In this document: positions 1 to 50,143 of the stretch, piece after piece | Position numbering within the stretch: position 1 is the first letter of the stretch | Layout: the number at the start of each line of letters is the position of its first letter | Source of the DNA: Caryophanales bacterium | GTDB taxonomy: Bacteria; Bacillota_I; Bacilli_A; RF39; UBA660 | Direction: 5' to 3' | Assembly: GCA_016282375.1 (NCBI GenBank) | Contig: JAEEKI010000015.1 | Span: 1-54,067 of the forward strand | Length of the DNA: 54,067 bases | Position numbers and translations under genes: made by a program | Notes under the pieces: generated by a model | The model's input: the letters and a program-made list of their open reading frames with translations, nothing else | Told to the model about the DNA's origin: nothing | Database searches by the model: none

Positions 1-125
1 CTGAATGCTATGTGGGCGACCTGTTATGTCAGGTGAGCTTCAACGGTTATGTCCGCTGTAGCGATAACTCTACGGGCGAGGTCTGTGACTTTGATCCGCT
101 TGGCCATGCCTATTGTGTGTCGTAG
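1..125 (+). CDS. C-terminal end of a modular surface protein (5' truncated)
   Basis: Only the last 40 codons are in the window, read from base 3 to the TAG at 123-125. The peptide has the pattern CYVGDLLC...GYVRCSD...GHAYC. It aligns closely with the last residues of the large surface protein ending at 50073, which reads CNVGNLYC...GFVRCSD...GHAYC. This is therefore the C-terminal cysteine module of the same family, probably exported. The segment is far richer in G+C than the genes around it, and most codons end in C or T. Its downstream flank also matches the flank after 50073. I infer a shared, possibly exchanged or diversified, 3' cassette. Function is unknown. Confidence 0.75.
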   Translation, partial: ECYVGDLLCQVSFNGYVRCSDNSTGEVCDFDPLGHAYCVS

Positions 126-170
126 GCTTAGTTGTCATCTGTGGGCGTGCTCGAATATCTTAATATCTTG

Positions 171-206
171 AATCTAATTTTGCTTTAAGTGAAATTAGAT
201 TTTTTT
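171..206 (+). terminator. Intrinsic terminator after the first surface-protein gene
   Basis: AATCTAATTT (171-180) pairs perfectly with AAATTAGATT (192-201) across an 11-base loop. A run of T follows at 200-206. The left arm is part of the element also found after the surface gene ending at 50073. Confidence 0.8.
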
Positions 207-2601: not shown

Positions 2602-3321
2602 ATGAATTTAAAAGATATTAATTATCTGGATTATGGTACTAATAAAAAAGGAACGATTGTTCTTTTGCATGGCTGGGGTCAAAATATTGAAATGATGGAT
2701 ATGTTGGGAAGACCTTTTGCTGATGATTTTCGTATTATTGTTTTAGATTTACCAGGTTTTGGCAAAACACCAGAACCAAAAGAACCTTGGTCAGTTAGCG
2801 ATTACACTAATATGTTACATGAATTATTAGCAAGTTTGAAAGTTAAAAATCCGATATTAATCGGTCATTCCTTCGGAGGAAGGATTGCCATTTGTTATGC
2901 ATCACAGTATGAGACAGACAAGGTCGTATTATTATCTAGTCCTTTTAGACCTACGAAAAAGAAAACTTCCTTTAAAACTAAGTTTTATAAATTTATTAAA
3001 AAGATTAAAATACTAAAACCACTTGCCGAGTATTTAAAAAAGAAGTGGGGTTCTGCTGATTACTTAGCGGCTAGTGAAATAAATCGGGGTACTTTAGTCA
3101 AAGTTGTCAATGAAGATTTGACTTCTAATGCTGAAAAGATTCAATGTCCAGTATTACTGATATATGGAAGTAAAGATGTTGATGTGCCAATTACGGAAGC
3201 ACAAAAATTAGAACAAATTATTCCTGATGCTGGTTTAGTTACTTATGAAAATGCCCATCATTATGCTTATTTAGAAAGATTAAGTCAAACACTATCAATA
3301 TTAAATAATTTCTTTGAATAA
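2602..3321 (+). CDS. Alpha/beta hydrolase
   Basis: This cytosolic alpha/beta-hydrolase-fold enzyme has 239 residues and no signal peptide. It shows the oxyanion-hole region HGWGQN near the N-terminus and the nucleophile elbow GHSFGG around residue 87. The acid is in the YGSKDVDVP segment near 195, and the catalytic His is in the NAHHYAYLE segment near 220, so the triad appears complete. The substrate cannot be read from sequence. It is co-directional with murF, which starts 12 bases downstream, so the two are probably co-transcribed. A cell-envelope role is possible but only by association. Confidence 0.85.
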   Translation: MNLKDINYLDYGTNKKGTIVLLHGWGQNIEMMDMLGRPFADDFRIIVLDLPGFGKTPEPKEPWSVSDYTNMLHELLASLKVKNPILIGHSFGGRIAICYASQYETDKVVLLSSPFRPTKKKTSFKTKFYKFIKKIKILKPLAEYLKKKWGSADYLAASEINRGTLVKVVNEDLTSNAEKIQCPVLLIYGSKDVDVPITEAQKLEQIIPDAGLVTYENAHHYAYLERLSQTLSILNNFFE

Positions 3322-3332
3322 GGAGGAGTCAT

Positions 3333-4913
3333 ATGAAAATATTGTTTATCTTTTTATTTATTAATGCTTTATTTGTTTTTACATCATTATTTGAATTGCA
3401 AATGCTTCAACAAAACAGTTATAATGAAAATAATTTCTTTAGTAAATTTATGATTGGTAATATTAAAAGTGATTATCAAGCTTATGCTTTAAAAGTCCTT
3501 TTTGCTATTTGTTTATTTTTGTTTTATAACTTTTCAAAATTAATAGCTTTTTTCTACTTTTTTATTATAACGATTTTATTAATTAAGGCATATGATGATT
3601 TTCATAAACATAACAATAAATTACCATTAAAATTTACTAAAAGAATGATTAGAATAATGGTATTTGATTATTTAGTATATGCTATCTTAGAATTATTATT
3701 AATGCGCTGTCGATTAACTTATTGTTTGGGTATTTTATTGTTGTTTATTACATTTAATTTTGTTATTTTAATCATTATTGTATGGTTATTAAAACCAGTA
3801 GAGAAGATGGTCTTTAATCACTATAAGAAAAATGCTTTAGATAAGTTAGCGAAGATGAATGATTTAAGAATCATTGGTATAACCGGATCTTTTGGTAAGA
3901 CGAGTACTAAGATGATTTTAAATACCATTTTACAAACAACTTATAAAGGATTTTATACCCCAAATTCCTTTAATACGCCAAATGGTTTATTAATGACAAT
4001 TAATCAAGAATCATCAATATTTAATGAATATTTTATTGCTGAAATGGGAGCAAAAAAACCTGGAGAAATTAAAGAACTTACGGATTTGGTTCATCCAAAA
4101 TATGGTATTTTAACTTCAATTGGGGAAGCTCATTTAGAAACTTTTAAATCTATTGATAATATATGTAAAACCAAATTTGAATTAATCGAGGGTTTACCTT
4201 CGGATGGCATTGCTATTTTAAATAAAGATGATAAGTATATGACATCTTATCATTTAAAAAATAATTGTCAAGTAATTTGGATTGGTATTGAAAATGATGC
4301 CGATGTTATGGCTAAAAATATTAAAATTACTAATAGGGGAACTAATTTTGATATTACTTTTAAAAATTCTAAATCAAAAATAAAAGTAAGTACTATTTTA
4401 CTTGGTAATAAAAATGTATATAATATTTTAGCCTCAGTGGCTCTTGCTAAAGAGTTAGGTGTTAGTAAAGAAAATATTATTCGGGGGGTTAAGAATATTG
4501 CTCCAATTAATCATCGTTTAGAGATTAAAGAATATCAAAATATTACGATTATTGATGATTCCTTTAATTCTAATCCAAAGGGAGCTAAAAACGCTTTAGA
4601 CGTTCTTGATTTAATGGAAGGTCAAAAGTATATAATTACTCCTGGTATGGTTGAAATGGGTGAGGAAGAAGAAAAACTTAATAAAGAGTTTGGTAAACAA
4701 ATTGCTGATGTTTGTGATAAAGTTTTCTTAGTAGGACCTAAGCAAACCAAACCAATCTATAATGGCTTAATTAGTAAAAAATATGATAAAGATAATATTG
4801 TGGTAGTTACTTCTTTTAAAGAGGGCTATAATAAGGCCATGGAAATGGCTAAGAATAATAAAACAACCATTTTAATTGAAAATGACTTACCAGATAGTTA
4901 TATGGAGGAATAA
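3333..4913 (+). CDS. murF: MurF-type Mur ligase with an N-terminal membrane domain
   Basis: MurF adds D-Ala-D-Ala to UDP-MurNAc-tripeptide, the last cytosolic step of peptidoglycan precursor synthesis. The catalytic part (about residues 175-526) carries the ATP-binding motif GSFGKTST, then the central region AEMGAKKPGEI and HRLEI...DDSFNSNP, typical of Mur ligases. Unlike soluble MurF (about 450 residues), the first 160 residues hold about four to five hydrophobic helices, ending in the arginine/lysine-bearing WLLKPVEKM. The enzyme would therefore sit on the membrane. The ddl gene, which makes its D-Ala-D-Ala substrate, begins three bases after its stop, supporting the assignment. The SD is AAGGAGG. 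Confidence 0.88.
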   Translation: MKILFIFLFINALFVFTSLFELQMLQQNSYNENNFFSKFMIGNIKSDYQAYALKVLFAICLFLFYNFSKLIAFFYFFIITILLIKAYDDFHKHNNKLPLKFTKRMIRIMVFDYLVYAILELLLMRCRLTYCLGILLLFITFNFVILIIIVWLLKPVEKMVFNHYKKNALDKLAKMNDLRIIGITGSFGKTSTKMILNTILQTTYKGFYTPNSFNTPNGLLMTINQESSIFNEYFIAEMGAKKPGEIKELTDLVHPKYGILTSIGEAHLETFKSIDNICKTKFELIEGLPSDGIAILNKDDKYMTSYHLKNNCQVIWIGIENDADVMAKNIKITNRGTNFDITFKNSKSKIKVSTILLGNKNVYNILASVALAKELGVSKENIIRGVKNIAPINHRLEIKEYQNITIIDDSFNSNPKGAKNALDVLDLMEGQKYIITPGMVEMGEEEEKLNKEFGKQIADVCDKVFLVGPKQTKPIYNGLISKKYDKDNIVVVTSFKEGYNKAMEMAKNNKTTILIENDLPDSYMEE

Positions 4914-44211: not shown

Positions 44212-46479
44212 GATATAATTATGATATAAGTAGATTAACGTATTAATGTGGAGGGATATAGCTTGAGAAGAATATTGTTATATGTAATTGTCATGATGCT
44301 TGCTTTATGTACATATTTATCTGTATCTTATGCTTATTATAGTATTACTCCATCTGGATCAGGCAATATTTCGGCTGATGTTAATATTTCTGGTTGTGTT
44401 TCTATACAAGTAAGTAATGTAATAAATATCAGTGGTGATTATGCAATCCCTGTTAGTGATACTAAAGCTTTAAGTAGTAATAATTATCGCACAGAATTTA
44501 CTTTATATAATCGATGTAATACGACGCAAGAAGTACAAGTAGCCTTTGCACCAGGCGCTGCGAATACCATGCCCTCGAGAGTTCTAGAGTATGCTGTATA
44601 TGAACAAGGTGGTACAGCACCGACTGCAGGTTCACCCTTTTTAACAAATGCTATAAAATTGGCACCATCAGTAATTAGTGATGTAGCAACGATGACGGGA
44701 GATACGGTGTCTGTAGGGTATTTACTTGACAACACATTTACTGTGGCAGCCAATTCCTCAAAATCCTATTATGCATATCTATGGATAACTAAAGATGAAG
44801 GTGGACTTTCTAACACAGCTATCAATAAAGTAGTCAAAATGCATTTGGTATTAGGGAATACTGGGGAACTTACGAATTCGGTTACTCTTATTGACTATAT
44901 AGCTAATGCTGCGCCAAGAAGTGGAACTGATGCTGTCACAAATAGTCAATGGATTCTAGCTTCAGATCATATAGGTGAGTGGCGATTTGCTGGTAAAAAC
45001 CCAAATAACTATATATTATTTAATGGTGAATTATGGCGAATTATTGGTGTTATGCCTAATATGGAGTATTGTACGAGAGCTTATGGTAGTGAAAGTGAGT
45101 GTTCGACGACAAAAACGGGCAGTTTAGTCAAAATTATTAGAAATGATTCTTTGGGCACTTTTTCCTTTGATTATAAAGCTGGAGGGGTTGGAACTTCGCA
45201 AATTGCTTCTGGCTCAAACGATTGGACTGATAGTCAGTTAATGTTAATGTTAAATGGGACTAATTATTTAACAACCGGCTATGATGCAAATGGTAATCAA
45301 TTGCATACAACCTATACAATAACAAATAATGTTGTAAGTGGACGTGGGTATATTTATTATAATGCAACATATAGTTATTTGGATGGTAATGGAACGACTG
45401 TATATAAGCCTACGCCAGCAACACCACCGAGTACTTATACAGCGACAGAGGCTACTTTACCTAGTAAAATATCGTCAACAGCATTATCACAAATAGCTAC
45501 GGTAAAATGGGATTTATATGGAGCTAGTTCATATACAACAGATTCCTCAGGTTCTGCCGAAGCATGGTATAACAAAGAAAGAAATATAAATAATTCAGGA
45601 AGTGTTTATAATGTGACAACGTCTGGACGTGAAAAAAGAGCCGTGTATTGGTACGGTAAAGTTGGATTAATGTCTATTAGTGATTATGGCTTTGCTACTA
45701 ATGGCGGCAGTACGTATTCTAGAGCGACATGTTTAGCATACCGAATGTCTTCGTGGGATAATGCTACTTATAAAACCAATTGTGCCGCAAATAGTTATTT
45801 ATTGTATACCGGTGTAACTGATACAGATCCTGGCTCTTCTAGCGTTAGACAATGGACTTTGAATCCATATTCTAGTTATAATTATAGGGAGTTTTATATT
45901 AGTATAGGTAATATTGCATATGCCAGTACTAGTACTGATTATTATGATGTTCGTCCTACTTTATATTTGAAACCTGAAATGATTTATCAAAGTGGGACAG
46001 GAACATGGAATAATCCATATCAAATAAGCGCTCCAACTGGATATTGGATGGCTTCTGGTGTTTATGCATTTCCAGCTTATGGTGGAACAATGCAATCAAG
46101 TGGGCAAGATACTCAAAGTAATTTTTACATTAAACAGGATAGTAGTAAATATAACGTATGTGCTTCAGATCAGGGTCATGAAGTATGTTTTTCTCAACCA
46201 TATTCGCAATATGGACTTACTGGGCATACACCACCTACTGATATGAGTAATACGTTTACAAGTGCGCAACAAGCAAGTTTAAAACAAGCAATATATCAAG
46301 CCTTTGTGGATGCTGGGATGAATATTGATATAAATAATAACTGTGGCTCTTATGATTATGCAGCTGGTTGTAGTGTAGGCAGTCTATCTTGTGATATACG
46401 TCTTTCTGGTGCAATAAGTTGTTATCAAAATTCACTTTCTTGTAGTTTAGGGTATGATGGTAACGTTACTTGTTCGTAA
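44204..46479 (+). repeat. First copy of duplicated surface-gene unit
   Basis: This stretch (promoter, leader and gene) is a diverged copy of 47745-50073. The region around the start and the first 700 bases is nearly identical in both, including the -10 with its T tract and GTGGAGGGATATAGC. Later parts differ more, and the 3' ends are unrelated at the DNA level. Confidence 0.85.
44263..46479 (+). CDS. Modular surface protein with TasA-like, WRIIG and C-terminal cysteine modules
   Basis: About 738 residues from TTG 44263. The paralogue at 47806 has GTG at the same place and the same GGAGGGA before it, which decides the start over GTG 44248. A signal helix ends in YLSVSYAYYSITPSGSGN, like SipW-processed TasA/camelysin proteins. 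A beta domain (about 30-205) follows, then the WRIIG domain with FNGELWRIIGVMPN, WTDSQLMLMLNG and WYGKVGLMSISDYGFAT. The C-terminal module has VCFSQPYSQYGLTGHT and FTSAQQASLKQAIYQAF. Predicted surface adhesin. Unlike its paralogue it has an AT-rich 3' end. Confidence 0.8.
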   Translation: MRRILLYVIVMMLALCTYLSVSYAYYSITPSGSGNISADVNISGCVSIQVSNVINISGDYAIPVSDTKALSSNNYRTEFTLYNRCNTTQEVQVAFAPGAANTMPSRVLEYAVYEQGGTAPTAGSPFLTNAIKLAPSVISDVATMTGDTVSVGYLLDNTFTVAANSSKSYYAYLWITKDEGGLSNTAINKVVKMHLVLGNTGELTNSVTLIDYIANAAPRSGTDAVTNSQWILASDHIGEWRFAGKNPNNYILFNGELWRIIGVMPNMEYCTRAYGSESECSTTKTGSLVKIIRNDSLGTFSFDYKAGGVGTSQIASGSNDWTDSQLMLMLNGTNYLTTGYDANGNQLHTTYTITNNVVSGRGYIYYNATYSYLDGNGTTVYKPTPATPPSTYTATEATLPSKISSTALSQIATVKWDLYGASSYTTDSSGSAEAWYNKERNINNSGSVYNVTTSGREKRAVYWYGKVGLMSISDYGFATNGGSTYSRATCLAYRMSSWDNATYKTNCAANSYLLYTGVTDTDPGSSSVRQWTLNPYSSYNYREFYISIGNIAYASTSTDYYDVRPTLYLKPEMIYQSGTGTWNNPYQISAPTGYWMASGVYAFPAYGGTMQSSGQDTQSNFYIKQDSSKYNVCASDQGHEVCFSQPYSQYGLTGHTPPTDMSNTFTSAQQASLKQAIYQAFVDAGMNIDINNNCGSYDYAAGCSVGSLSCDIRLSGAISCYQNSLSCSLGYDGNVTCS

Positions 46480-47744: not shown

Positions 47745-50073
47745 CTTTTTTTTGATATAATTTATGTTATGAGTAGATTAGTGTATTAAAGTGGAGGGAT
47801 ATAGCGTGAGAAGAATATTGTTATATGTAATTGTCATGATGCTTGCTTTATGTACATATTTATCTATATCTTATGCTTACTATAGCATTACTCCATCTGG
47901 ATCAGGTAATATTTCGGCTGATGTTAATATTTCTGGTTGTGTCTCTTTACAGGTAAGTAATACTATAAATATCAGTGGTGATTATGCAATCCCTGTTAAT
48001 GATGCTAAAGCTTTAAGTAGTAATAATTATCGAACTGAATTTACCTTATATAATCGATGTGATACAGCGCAAGAAGTACAATTAGCATTTGCACCAGGCG
48101 CTGCGAATACCATGCCTTCGAAATTGTTAGAGTATGTTGTATATGAACAAGGTAGTGCGGCTCCGACAGCAGGAACGGCACTGTTAACAAATGGTATAGA
48201 ATTAGCACCATCAGTAATTAGCGATGTAGCAACGATGACCGGAGATACAGTTTCTACAGGATATTTACTTGACAACACATTTGCCGTGGCAGCCAATTCC
48301 TCAAAATCCTATTATGCATATCTATGGATAAATAAAGATGAAGGTGGAACATCTAACACAGCTATCAATAAAGTAGTTAAAATGCATTTGGTATTAGGAA
48401 ATACTGGGGAGCTTACGAATACAACTACTTTGGCTGGTTATCTTGTTAATACTGCGCCAAGAAGTGGAACTGATACAATAACAAGTAAGGCATGGATGTT
48501 AACAGAAGACCATCCAGGTGAATGGCGATTTGCTGGTAAAAACCCAAATAACTATATATTATTTAATAATGAATTATGGCGAATAATTGGTATTATGCCT
48601 AATATGGAGTATTGTACGGGAACGTATGGTAATGCAAGTGAATGTTCGACGACAAAAACGGGTAGTTTAATTAAAATAATTCGCAATGATTCTTTGGGCG
48701 CTTTTTCCTTTGATTATAAGGCTTCAGGGGTTGGAACTTCATCAAGCTCTTATGGTTCTAACGATTGGACTGATAGTCAGTTAATGTTAATGTTAAATGG
48801 GACTAATTATCTAAAAACGGGATATAGTGCTGCTGGAACTCAGTTACATACCGCTTATACGATAACAAATAATGTTGTAAGTGGACGTGGGTATAATTAT
48901 TATAATGCAACATATAGTTACTTGGATGGTAATGGTACGACTGTATATAAGCCTACCCAAGCAACAGCTAGTGCTTATACGGCGACAGAGGCTACCTTAC
49001 CTAGTAAAATATCATCAACAGCATTATCACAAATTGCCACGGTAAAATGGAATTTGTATGGAACAGGTTCATATTCGACAGCGGCCGAGGGTTCTGCCGA
49101 AGCATGGTATAACAAAGAAAGAAATATAAATAATTCAGGAAGTGTTTATAACATGACAACGTCTGGACGAGAAAAAAGAGCCGTATATTGGTATGGTAAA
49201 GTAGGATTAATGTCTATTAGTGATTATGGCTTTGCTACTTATGGTAGTGGTGGTAGTTCATACACTAGAGCTACATGTCTAGGAATTCAGATTAATTCGT
49301 GGAGTAGTAGTTCTTACAAAACTAATTGTGCAGCGAATAGTTATTTGTGGTATACCGGTGTAACTGATACAGCTCCTGGCTCTTCTGGAGTTATTCAATG
49401 GACTTTGAATCCTCTTTCTAGTTATGCATATAGGGAGTTTTATATTAATAGTACAGGTAATATTTCATATAACAGTACTAGTACTGCTACTTATAATGTT
49501 CGTCCTGTTGTATATTTAAAGAGCGATGTAACGTATCATGGTGGGACAGGAACATGGAATGATCCATATCGAATTGATGGCTTACCATCATATTGGTTTG
49601 CACTATCAACATGGAATGAGAATACCGGACAATATGAACCTTCATATACACATCCAAATTATGGAGGAACATTACAAAGTAGTGGAACAGCAACAGGACA
49701 TAATATATATATTGGCCAAGATAGTAGTAAATATTATGCATGTGCAACTATTCAGGGCCATGAAATATGTTTAAGTCAACCATATACGCAATATGGATTA
49801 AGTGGACATACATTAAATAGTAATTTTACCAGTGCCCAACAAGCAAGTGCCAAACAAGCAATCTATCAAGCCTTTATCGATGCAGGAATCACAGTCGATA
49901 TAGGTGATTGCAGCACTTCCGGCTACATCGCTCGCTGCAATGTGGGCAACCTCTACTGTGGAGTGTACCCCGGTGGTTTTGTCCGCTGCAGCGATAGCAT
50001 TATTAACGGGTACTGTGATGTCGATGTCTCTGGTCATGCTTACTGTGCTTACTACGCTTCCCTTGAAGTTTAG
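47745..50073 (+). repeat. Second copy of duplicated surface-gene unit
   Basis: Paralogous to 44204-46479. It shares the T-tract and TATAAT (47756-47761), the leader and long stretches of the coding part. It differs in ending with a GC-rich tail that instead resembles the tail at the window start. Confidence 0.85.
47806..50073 (+). CDS. Modular surface protein with GC-rich variable C-terminal tail
   Basis: About 755 residues from GTG 47806 behind GGAGGGA. The order of parts equals the 44263 paralogue: SipW/TasA-like signal region (SISYAYYSITPSGSGN), beta domain, WRIIG domain (FNNELWRIIGIMPN, WYGKVGLMSISDYGFAT), then the module ICLSQPYTQYGLSGHT and FTSAQQASAKQAIYQAF. The last 55 codons (from about 49890) turn sharply GC-rich and use mostly NNC or NNT codons. 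They encode paired cysteine hairpins (CNVGNLYC, GFVRCSD, GYCDVDVSGHAYC). That tail matches the truncated gene at the window start. Probably an adhesin with a diversified tip; the mechanism is not shown here. Confidence 0.8.
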   Translation: MRRILLYVIVMMLALCTYLSISYAYYSITPSGSGNISADVNISGCVSLQVSNTINISGDYAIPVNDAKALSSNNYRTEFTLYNRCDTAQEVQLAFAPGAANTMPSKLLEYVVYEQGSAAPTAGTALLTNGIELAPSVISDVATMTGDTVSTGYLLDNTFAVAANSSKSYYAYLWINKDEGGTSNTAINKVVKMHLVLGNTGELTNTTTLAGYLVNTAPRSGTDTITSKAWMLTEDHPGEWRFAGKNPNNYILFNNELWRIIGIMPNMEYCTGTYGNASECSTTKTGSLIKIIRNDSLGAFSFDYKASGVGTSSSSYGSNDWTDSQLMLMLNGTNYLKTGYSAAGTQLHTAYTITNNVVSGRGYNYYNATYSYLDGNGTTVYKPTQATASAYTATEATLPSKISSTALSQIATVKWNLYGTGSYSTAAEGSAEAWYNKERNINNSGSVYNMTTSGREKRAVYWYGKVGLMSISDYGFATYGSGGSSYTRATCLGIQINSWSSSSYKTNCAANSYLWYTGVTDTAPGSSGVIQWTLNPLSSYAYREFYINSTGNISYNSTSTATYNVRPVVYLKSDVTYHGGTGTWNDPYRIDGLPSYWFALSTWNENTGQYEPSYTHPNYGGTLQSSGTATGHNIYIGQDSSKYYACATIQGHEICLSQPYTQYGLSGHTLNSNFTSAQQASAKQAIYQAFIDAGITVDIGDCSTSGYIARCNVGNLYCGVYPGGFVRCSDSIINGYCDVDVSGHAYCAYYASLEV

Positions 50074-50143
50074 TGTCTGATCGTCCCAGCGTTCTTCCGA
50101 GTATCTTAATATCTTTAATCTAATTTTGCCATTAGGCAAAATT
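49880..50143 (+). repeat. GC-rich 3' tail and flank shared with the window start
   Basis: The coding tail (about 49880-50073) and a flank (CGAGTATCTTAATATCTTTA at 50098-50117, then ATCTAATTTTGC) match the tail and flank at about 3-182. After it lies a perfect hairpin, AATTTTGCC (50122-50130) with GGCAAAATT (50135-50143), loop ATTA, not followed by T. Such a hairpin would fit the downstream element of a diversity-generating retroelement target, but could also be something else. Confidence 0.6.

Follow-up and report, generated by a model that had tools for sequence, protein, structure and literature searches.

The window, a stretch of 54,067 nucleotides from a Caryophanales bacterium, carries near its right-hand end a long gene for a surface protein whose last codons differ sharply in composition from the rest of the reading frame. 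The features of this gene, of its relatives within the window and of a homologous locus in another genus of the same family (contig C98 of genome G250) are collected in Table 1.

Table 1. Features of the target genes in the window and of the homologous locus G250:C98.
Sequence	Feature	Position	Strand	Remarks
Window	Target gene, 760 aa: signal peptide, DUF6273-like/C-lectin-like middle, C-terminal GHEICLSQPYTQYGL domain, variable tail	47791..50073	+	GTG starts at 47791 or 47806
Window	Conserved upstream part of the domain	49825..49902	+	Helix SAKQAIYQAFIDAGI; low GC
Window	Variable repeat (VR)	49903..50073	+	GC-rich NNY-codon tail
Window	Six-cysteine core	49909..50046	+	Spacing 8-6-9-8-9, as encoded by the G250 template
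Window	Post-stop stretch in the position of an IMH	50074..50104	+	GC-rich, ends in TATC; several lineage-specific versions among copies
Window	Near-invariant flank CTTAATATCTTTAATCTAATTTTGC	50105..50129	+	Common to all variable copies of the genome
Window	9-bp hairpin, 4-nt loop	50122..50143	+	AATTTTGCC-ATTA-GGCAAAATT
Window	Second VR-bearing gene, 3' end only	3..125	+	Cut by contig end
Window	Same near-invariant flank, 3' of the 3-125 fragment	159..183	+
Window	Longer imperfect hairpin, then T run (terminator-like)	171..206	+	Replaces the 4-nt-loop hairpin; from sequence
Window	Tandem paralogue	44248..46479	+	Same domain, AT-rich tail, without VR flank
G250:C98	Target ORF ending in the same domain	2224-2862
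G250:C98	Template (TR)	about 3077-3246
G250:C98	Avd homologue	3564-3887		PF22296 E=2e-9 and NF033474 6e-10, scores under the curated Pfam and NCBIfam cut-offs; phrog_3206 'Avd protein of DGR' 6e-12
G250:C98	Start of the reverse transcriptase (RT)	3871 to contig end		phrog_1423 E=3e-18

A GC-rich tail and its flank

The 57 codons of the tail (49903-50073) have a GC content of 51.5% and a GC3 of 54%, compared with 36.3% and 21% for the remainder of the gene and an overall GC of 30.2% for the window. Of 5390 segments of 171 bp, just three reach this GC content, all of them at the position of the tail. NNY codons make up 91% of the tail and NNC codons 48%, the latter accounting for 8% of the gene body. 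The preliminary description, which had reported a GC-rich NNY tail here and the same tail on the truncated gene at the start of the window, is thus borne out on both points, positions 3-125 having a GC content of 52%. The tail of the tandem paralogue (46330-46479; GC 35%, GC3 12%) retains the cysteine frame, and this gene has the domain without belonging to the diversified copies. Sequence searches of the window protein against solved structures and Pfam gave no match. Its middle domain at 49380-49560 (VRPVVYLKSD), labelled DUF6273/C-lectin type by resemblance to a retroelement target in G002 that is itself a weak DUF6273 hit, corresponds to the site of variation in relatives and is here AT-rich, with no signs of a VR.

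A shared flank after both tails and a hairpin after the window gene had also been described. The 25-bp flank CTTAATATCTTNAATCTAATTTTGC occurs exactly twice in the window, where none would be expected by chance, and the 9-bp hairpin with its four-base loop is present after the window gene. In diversity-generating retroelements (DGRs), the target hairpin lies just 3' of the VR and consists of a 7-10 bp stem with a 4-nt loop of the form 5'-GRNA (Guo 2011, PMC3240598). The window copy has the stem but the loop ATTA instead of GRNA. At least six copies elsewhere in the same genome form a perfect 9-10 bp stem, AATTTTGCC-GATA/GACA-GGCAAAATT, and these loops appear to agree with the GRNA loop of DGR targets (PMC3240598); in about eight copies the hairpin is decayed. 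The G250 target has a comparable hairpin after its VR (ATCTTTGC-GATA-GCAAAGAT, 8-bp stem), which does not follow the G250 TR. Some copies, in which a T run follows (e.g., 171-206), could be read as terminators; the window copy has no T run and does not fit this reading.

A dispersed family of tails

The tail belongs to a genome-wide pattern. In the assembly to which the window belongs (G000; 1.08 Mb in 24 contigs, 85% complete and broken at VR repeats), which probably represents a small bacterium of the rumen, 32 matches to the tail stretch were found in about 25 paralogous genes with homologous C-termini. All paralogues carry KYYACATIQGHEICLSQPYTQYGL...ASAKQAIYQAFIDAGI followed by the six-cysteine tail. 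About 19 of the tails, at scattered loci, are variable and GC-rich, each followed by one flank that is near-invariant across 27 columns; the intervening post-stop stretch differs among copies in a lineage-specific, not adenine-specific, manner. Six other tails, including that of the tandem paralogue, are AT-rich, and five of the six lack the flank.

Most proteins of the family are 370-406 aa long and carry a signal peptide, the two in the window reaching 740-760 aa, with a DUF6273/C-lectin-like middle in both. The N-termini of most targets may be those of SipW/TasA-camelysin-like secreted fibre proteins, which are characterized by TYAYF(S/A)TG after an N-terminal signal and by recurring paralogues, and the gene with the TasA-like N-terminus is present in about 40 copies in 1.08 Mb. 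The target at locus L002 gave no hit of note in Pfam or NCBIfam. Of all contig ends, 14 of 48 lie inside the tail gene family, so that loss of a repeat-bounded contig with TR and RT would be expected.

Among 386 genomes of the family, eight gave a match to a profile of the tail (A1); in the six besides G000 and G002, the match extends little beyond the tail. A DNA search with the tail in 60 relatives returned no true copy outside G000, and viral contigs contained neither a relative of the tail domain nor an exact copy of the flank.

Adenine-directed variation

Variation was measured over the 19 GC-rich copies of the genome, a column being counted as varying when its minor fraction was at least 0.25. 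Within the tail, 89% of the columns with an adenine majority vary, compared with 24% for C, 29% for G and 35% for T (A versus other columns, p=2.8e-8; A versus T, p=2.6e-5; the copies are related, so these column p-values are descriptive). The upstream coding flank of the same genes shows no adenine asymmetry (p=0.1). Variation at codon positions 1, 2 and 3 is 0.28, 0.28 and 0.19 in the tail, and 0.13, 0.11 and 0.27 upstream. A strand-specific pattern with fixed third bases reads as the product of mutagenic retrohoming from an AAY-rich template, which drift and protein selection would not be expected to give. DGRs are recognized by a VR that closes a coding gene and varies at adenines, and such a VR was found in this family.

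Differences are also seen at the C, G and T columns, in about 20% of copies, in line with the earlier remark that some third-base differences are not explained by adenine mutagenesis. These differences are attributed to the exchange of finished copies and to the reshuffling of flank versions and internal alleles between loci. Two loci of the genome that differ in their flanks have an identical VR across an assembly break (129 and 121 bp), alleles such as GCCTCTGGT and CCGCTTGGC are paired with differing post-stop stretches, and identical VR halves are also present in G401. Some copies of the window's genome have, to judge from these arrangements, been exchanged between loci without mutation. 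In G401, the locus pairs C21/C31 and C23/C26 (L142-L145) carry, at contig ends, VRs that are nearly identical and flanks that differ, as in G000, and may likewise reflect the copying of finished VRs between loci.

A homologous locus with template, Avd and reverse transcriptase

At the G250 locus, a target with its VR, a TR, an Avd gene and the start of an RT gene follow one another in this order. In an alignment of 161 bp, the VR differs from the TR at 22 positions, and 19 of these (19/22) are TR adenines. The template encodes CNVNSESVNCNASDFNCNVNSNGNVNCNDNGAGSNCNVNSDGSVNC, with a cysteine spacing of 8-6-9-8-9 that is the same as in 11 tails of the window's genome. Furthermore, the AAN codons of this template coincide with the hypervariable residues of the G000 tails (mean 2.33 versus 0.98 bits, p=4.7e-6; versus non-cysteine residues only, p=3.6e-5). 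At the DNA level, G000 sites aligned with G250 TR adenines vary at 0.39 versus 0.09-0.17 at others (p=7e-10), and the difference persists when cysteine codons are left out and only codon positions 1 and 2 are counted (p=4e-6). In addition, of the 34 sites that distinguish two VRs of G201, 24 (24/34) are adenines in the G250 TR. The second VR gene of G201 (L141, contig C7, 7724-8583) has a frame broken just upstream of the conserved domain, its VR being intact.

Search for the reverse transcriptase and template

Searches of the 85% complete G000 assembly with the RVT_1 family and with a DGR RT protein from the same genus gave no match, and no template stands apart from the genes in this assembly, broken as it is at repeats, every match to the tail core lying in a gene end. 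The search for RT and template in the rest of the genome, proposed in the preliminary description, thus found neither in this incomplete assembly; in the other genus, VR, TR, Avd and the start of an RT stand together. G201, which is 96% complete, contains the VRs, with no template and no evident DGR RT.

RTs are present in four of nine genomes of the same genus. The four genomes G002, G005, G008 and G009 contain canonical DGRs in which TR and VR differ almost only at TR adenines, and their targets are of the C-lectin type. The DGRs of the genus and family (L061, L062, L064, L067-L069) belong to the same lineage and share with the system described here a VR at the gene end and differences specific to TR adenines, together with a small Avd-like ORF and an RT of 350-370 aa; Avd was found in the same genus at L064, as at G250:C98. 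Their VRs lie in DUF6273-type/C-lectin domains, whereas that of the window protein lies in an extra tail beyond an AT-rich middle domain outside the variation. Upstream of Avd, many DGRs of the family (L062, L064, L159, L160) have a conserved ORF of about 125-145 aa (xxSGxFYxxxDxDAxILxYL...), an unnamed accessory gene.

Several candidates for the missing element were rejected. The DGR of MAG Tb.RUG.7 (G098:C29) comes with a separate TR/VR pair, which lies in a pilin-like gene and bears no relation to the tail. This bin looks mixed, since its ligA is only 69% identical to that of G000 and its tail contig L086 is 85-90% identical to G000 copies. On L086, rpsB-tsf sits between two copies of the gene with the TasA-like N-terminus; rpsB-tsf itself gave no match in G000. 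Beside the DGR of G098:C29, a short DinD/BRO-like reading frame is repeated several times (L093, 3585-6842), and at one point in each repeat stands a palindrome, perfect or nearly so, that differs from repeat to repeat (GTCGGCGCCGAC, CCCGGGGTTGGG, GTCCAGATGGAC, GCCAACGTTGGC), as if the stems covary. RTs in G401, G282 and G201 were set aside, as none adjoins a template for the tail.

Origin of the variation

The tail is very probably the VR of a DGR target family, its 3' ends replaced by cDNA that an adenine-misincorporating RT makes from an AAY-rich template. This rests on the adenine-directed variation in about 19 copies, on the G250 locus with its TR/VR pair, Avd and RT start, and on the placement of the template's AAY codons on the variable residues of G000; the suggestion of a retroelement-diversified tail in the preliminary description is thereby supported. 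Under this mechanism, an AAY-rich template RNA would be reverse-transcribed by the DGR RT with errors at adenines, and the cDNA would replace the 3' end of many target genes, recognized by the features that follow each stop codon: the GC-rich stretch, the near-invariant flank and the hairpin. Codons without mutable adenines would keep the cysteines, the glycines and every second strand residue fixed, and the alternating AAY residues would vary. Because V, C and S stand between the AAY codons of the template, each strand would have a variable face and a constant cysteine face. RT and template would act, or would recently have acted, in trans on all copies of the genome, from within the unassembled 15%.

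It is possible, although unlikely, that the tails are a relic, diversified by an ancestral DGR whose RT has been lost, so that the copies now only drift and recombine. The lack of RT and template in the assemblies of G000 and of the nearly complete G201 would fit such a history, as would the decayed hairpins in part of the copies and the six AT-rich tails, five without flank. However, the AAY-derived, GC-rich pattern is still crisp in an AT-rich genome (NNC 48% versus 8%), the flank is near-invariant across all variable copies, and an absent TR/RT contig is expected where 14 of 48 contig ends fall in the gene family.

Ordinary gene conversion or cassette exchange among paralogues, creating as well as spreading the variety without retroelement mutagenesis, is improbable. 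Exchange does occur, as the identical VRs at two loci with different flanks, the alleles with different post-stop stretches and the identical VR halves in G401 indicate, and to this extent the alternative raised in the preliminary description stands. As the sole source of variety it is refuted by the adenine pattern, because conversion spreads variants but is not a source of variation that falls on the A columns of one strand and leaves third bases fixed, and it gives no account of a TR/VR pair beside Avd and RT. Positive selection alone on a cysteine-framework binding domain, in the manner of conotoxins, is very improbable: the fixed Cys/Gly frame with varied residues in between is what it would produce, but it would leave third positions freest, as they are upstream, whereas in the tail third positions vary least, and variation is higher at A than at T columns.

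Fold of the tail domain

An AF2 model built from four sequences of the window and its relatives predicts a helix and six strands (mean pLDDT 80), the helix lying on an antiparallel sheet. With this model, no Foldseek match had an E value under 0.03 and no VIA-align match exceeded Z 5.6, and the tail domain had no hit in Pfam. No C-type lectin appears among the listed structure matches, an outcome that neither excludes one nor proves the fold to be new; the polo-box and cystatin-like matches are too weak to mean a relation. The domain is thus apparently, on the model, a non-lectin six-cysteine scaffold.

Comparison with known systems and significance

The DGR of Bordetella phage BPP-1 (mtd/avd/brt; PMC3240598) shares with the family described here a C-terminal NNY VR with adenine-directed differences, a GC-rich end with a downstream 4-nt-loop hairpin (GRNA in many G000 copies) and, as seen in G250, Avd and RT beside the target. 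Unlike BPP-1, the window's genome has many dispersed targets, a six-cysteine domain that is not evidently a C-type lectin, and an RT and template not found in its 85% complete assembly. One DGR can serve several remote VRs, as in Treponema denticola (PMC4891356), in Trichodesmium (PMC8867640) and in a survey (PMC6642488). Remote VRs are common to these systems and the present one, which differs in carrying about 19 VR copies of one family in 1.08 Mb. In the largest survey, annotated VR regions were systematically C-type lectin folds, a fold described there as near-universal among DGR targets, and the survey's own search would miss remote targets (PMC8144416). New in relation to known DGRs are thus about 19 target domains per genome and an apparently non-lectin six-cysteine scaffold.

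The balance of probability is modestly in favor of a DGR lineage whose variable domain is small, with six cysteines and a helix-plus-beta-sheet fold instead of a C-type lectin, and which acts in trans on about twenty dispersed surface-fibre genes, giving the bacterium a coat with an antibody-like variable domain. Because the targets are secreted surface proteins, their likely use is as a repertoire of binding specificities. The case offers a different scaffold, in which cysteines hold strictly alternating mutable residues, and illustrates the number of remote targets that a single lineage may have. Compact and new, the scaffold would add to the range of natural frames able to tolerate massive variation, and it would place a surface repertoire in a host-associated, small-genome bacterium, invisible to surveys tied to the RT neighborhood.
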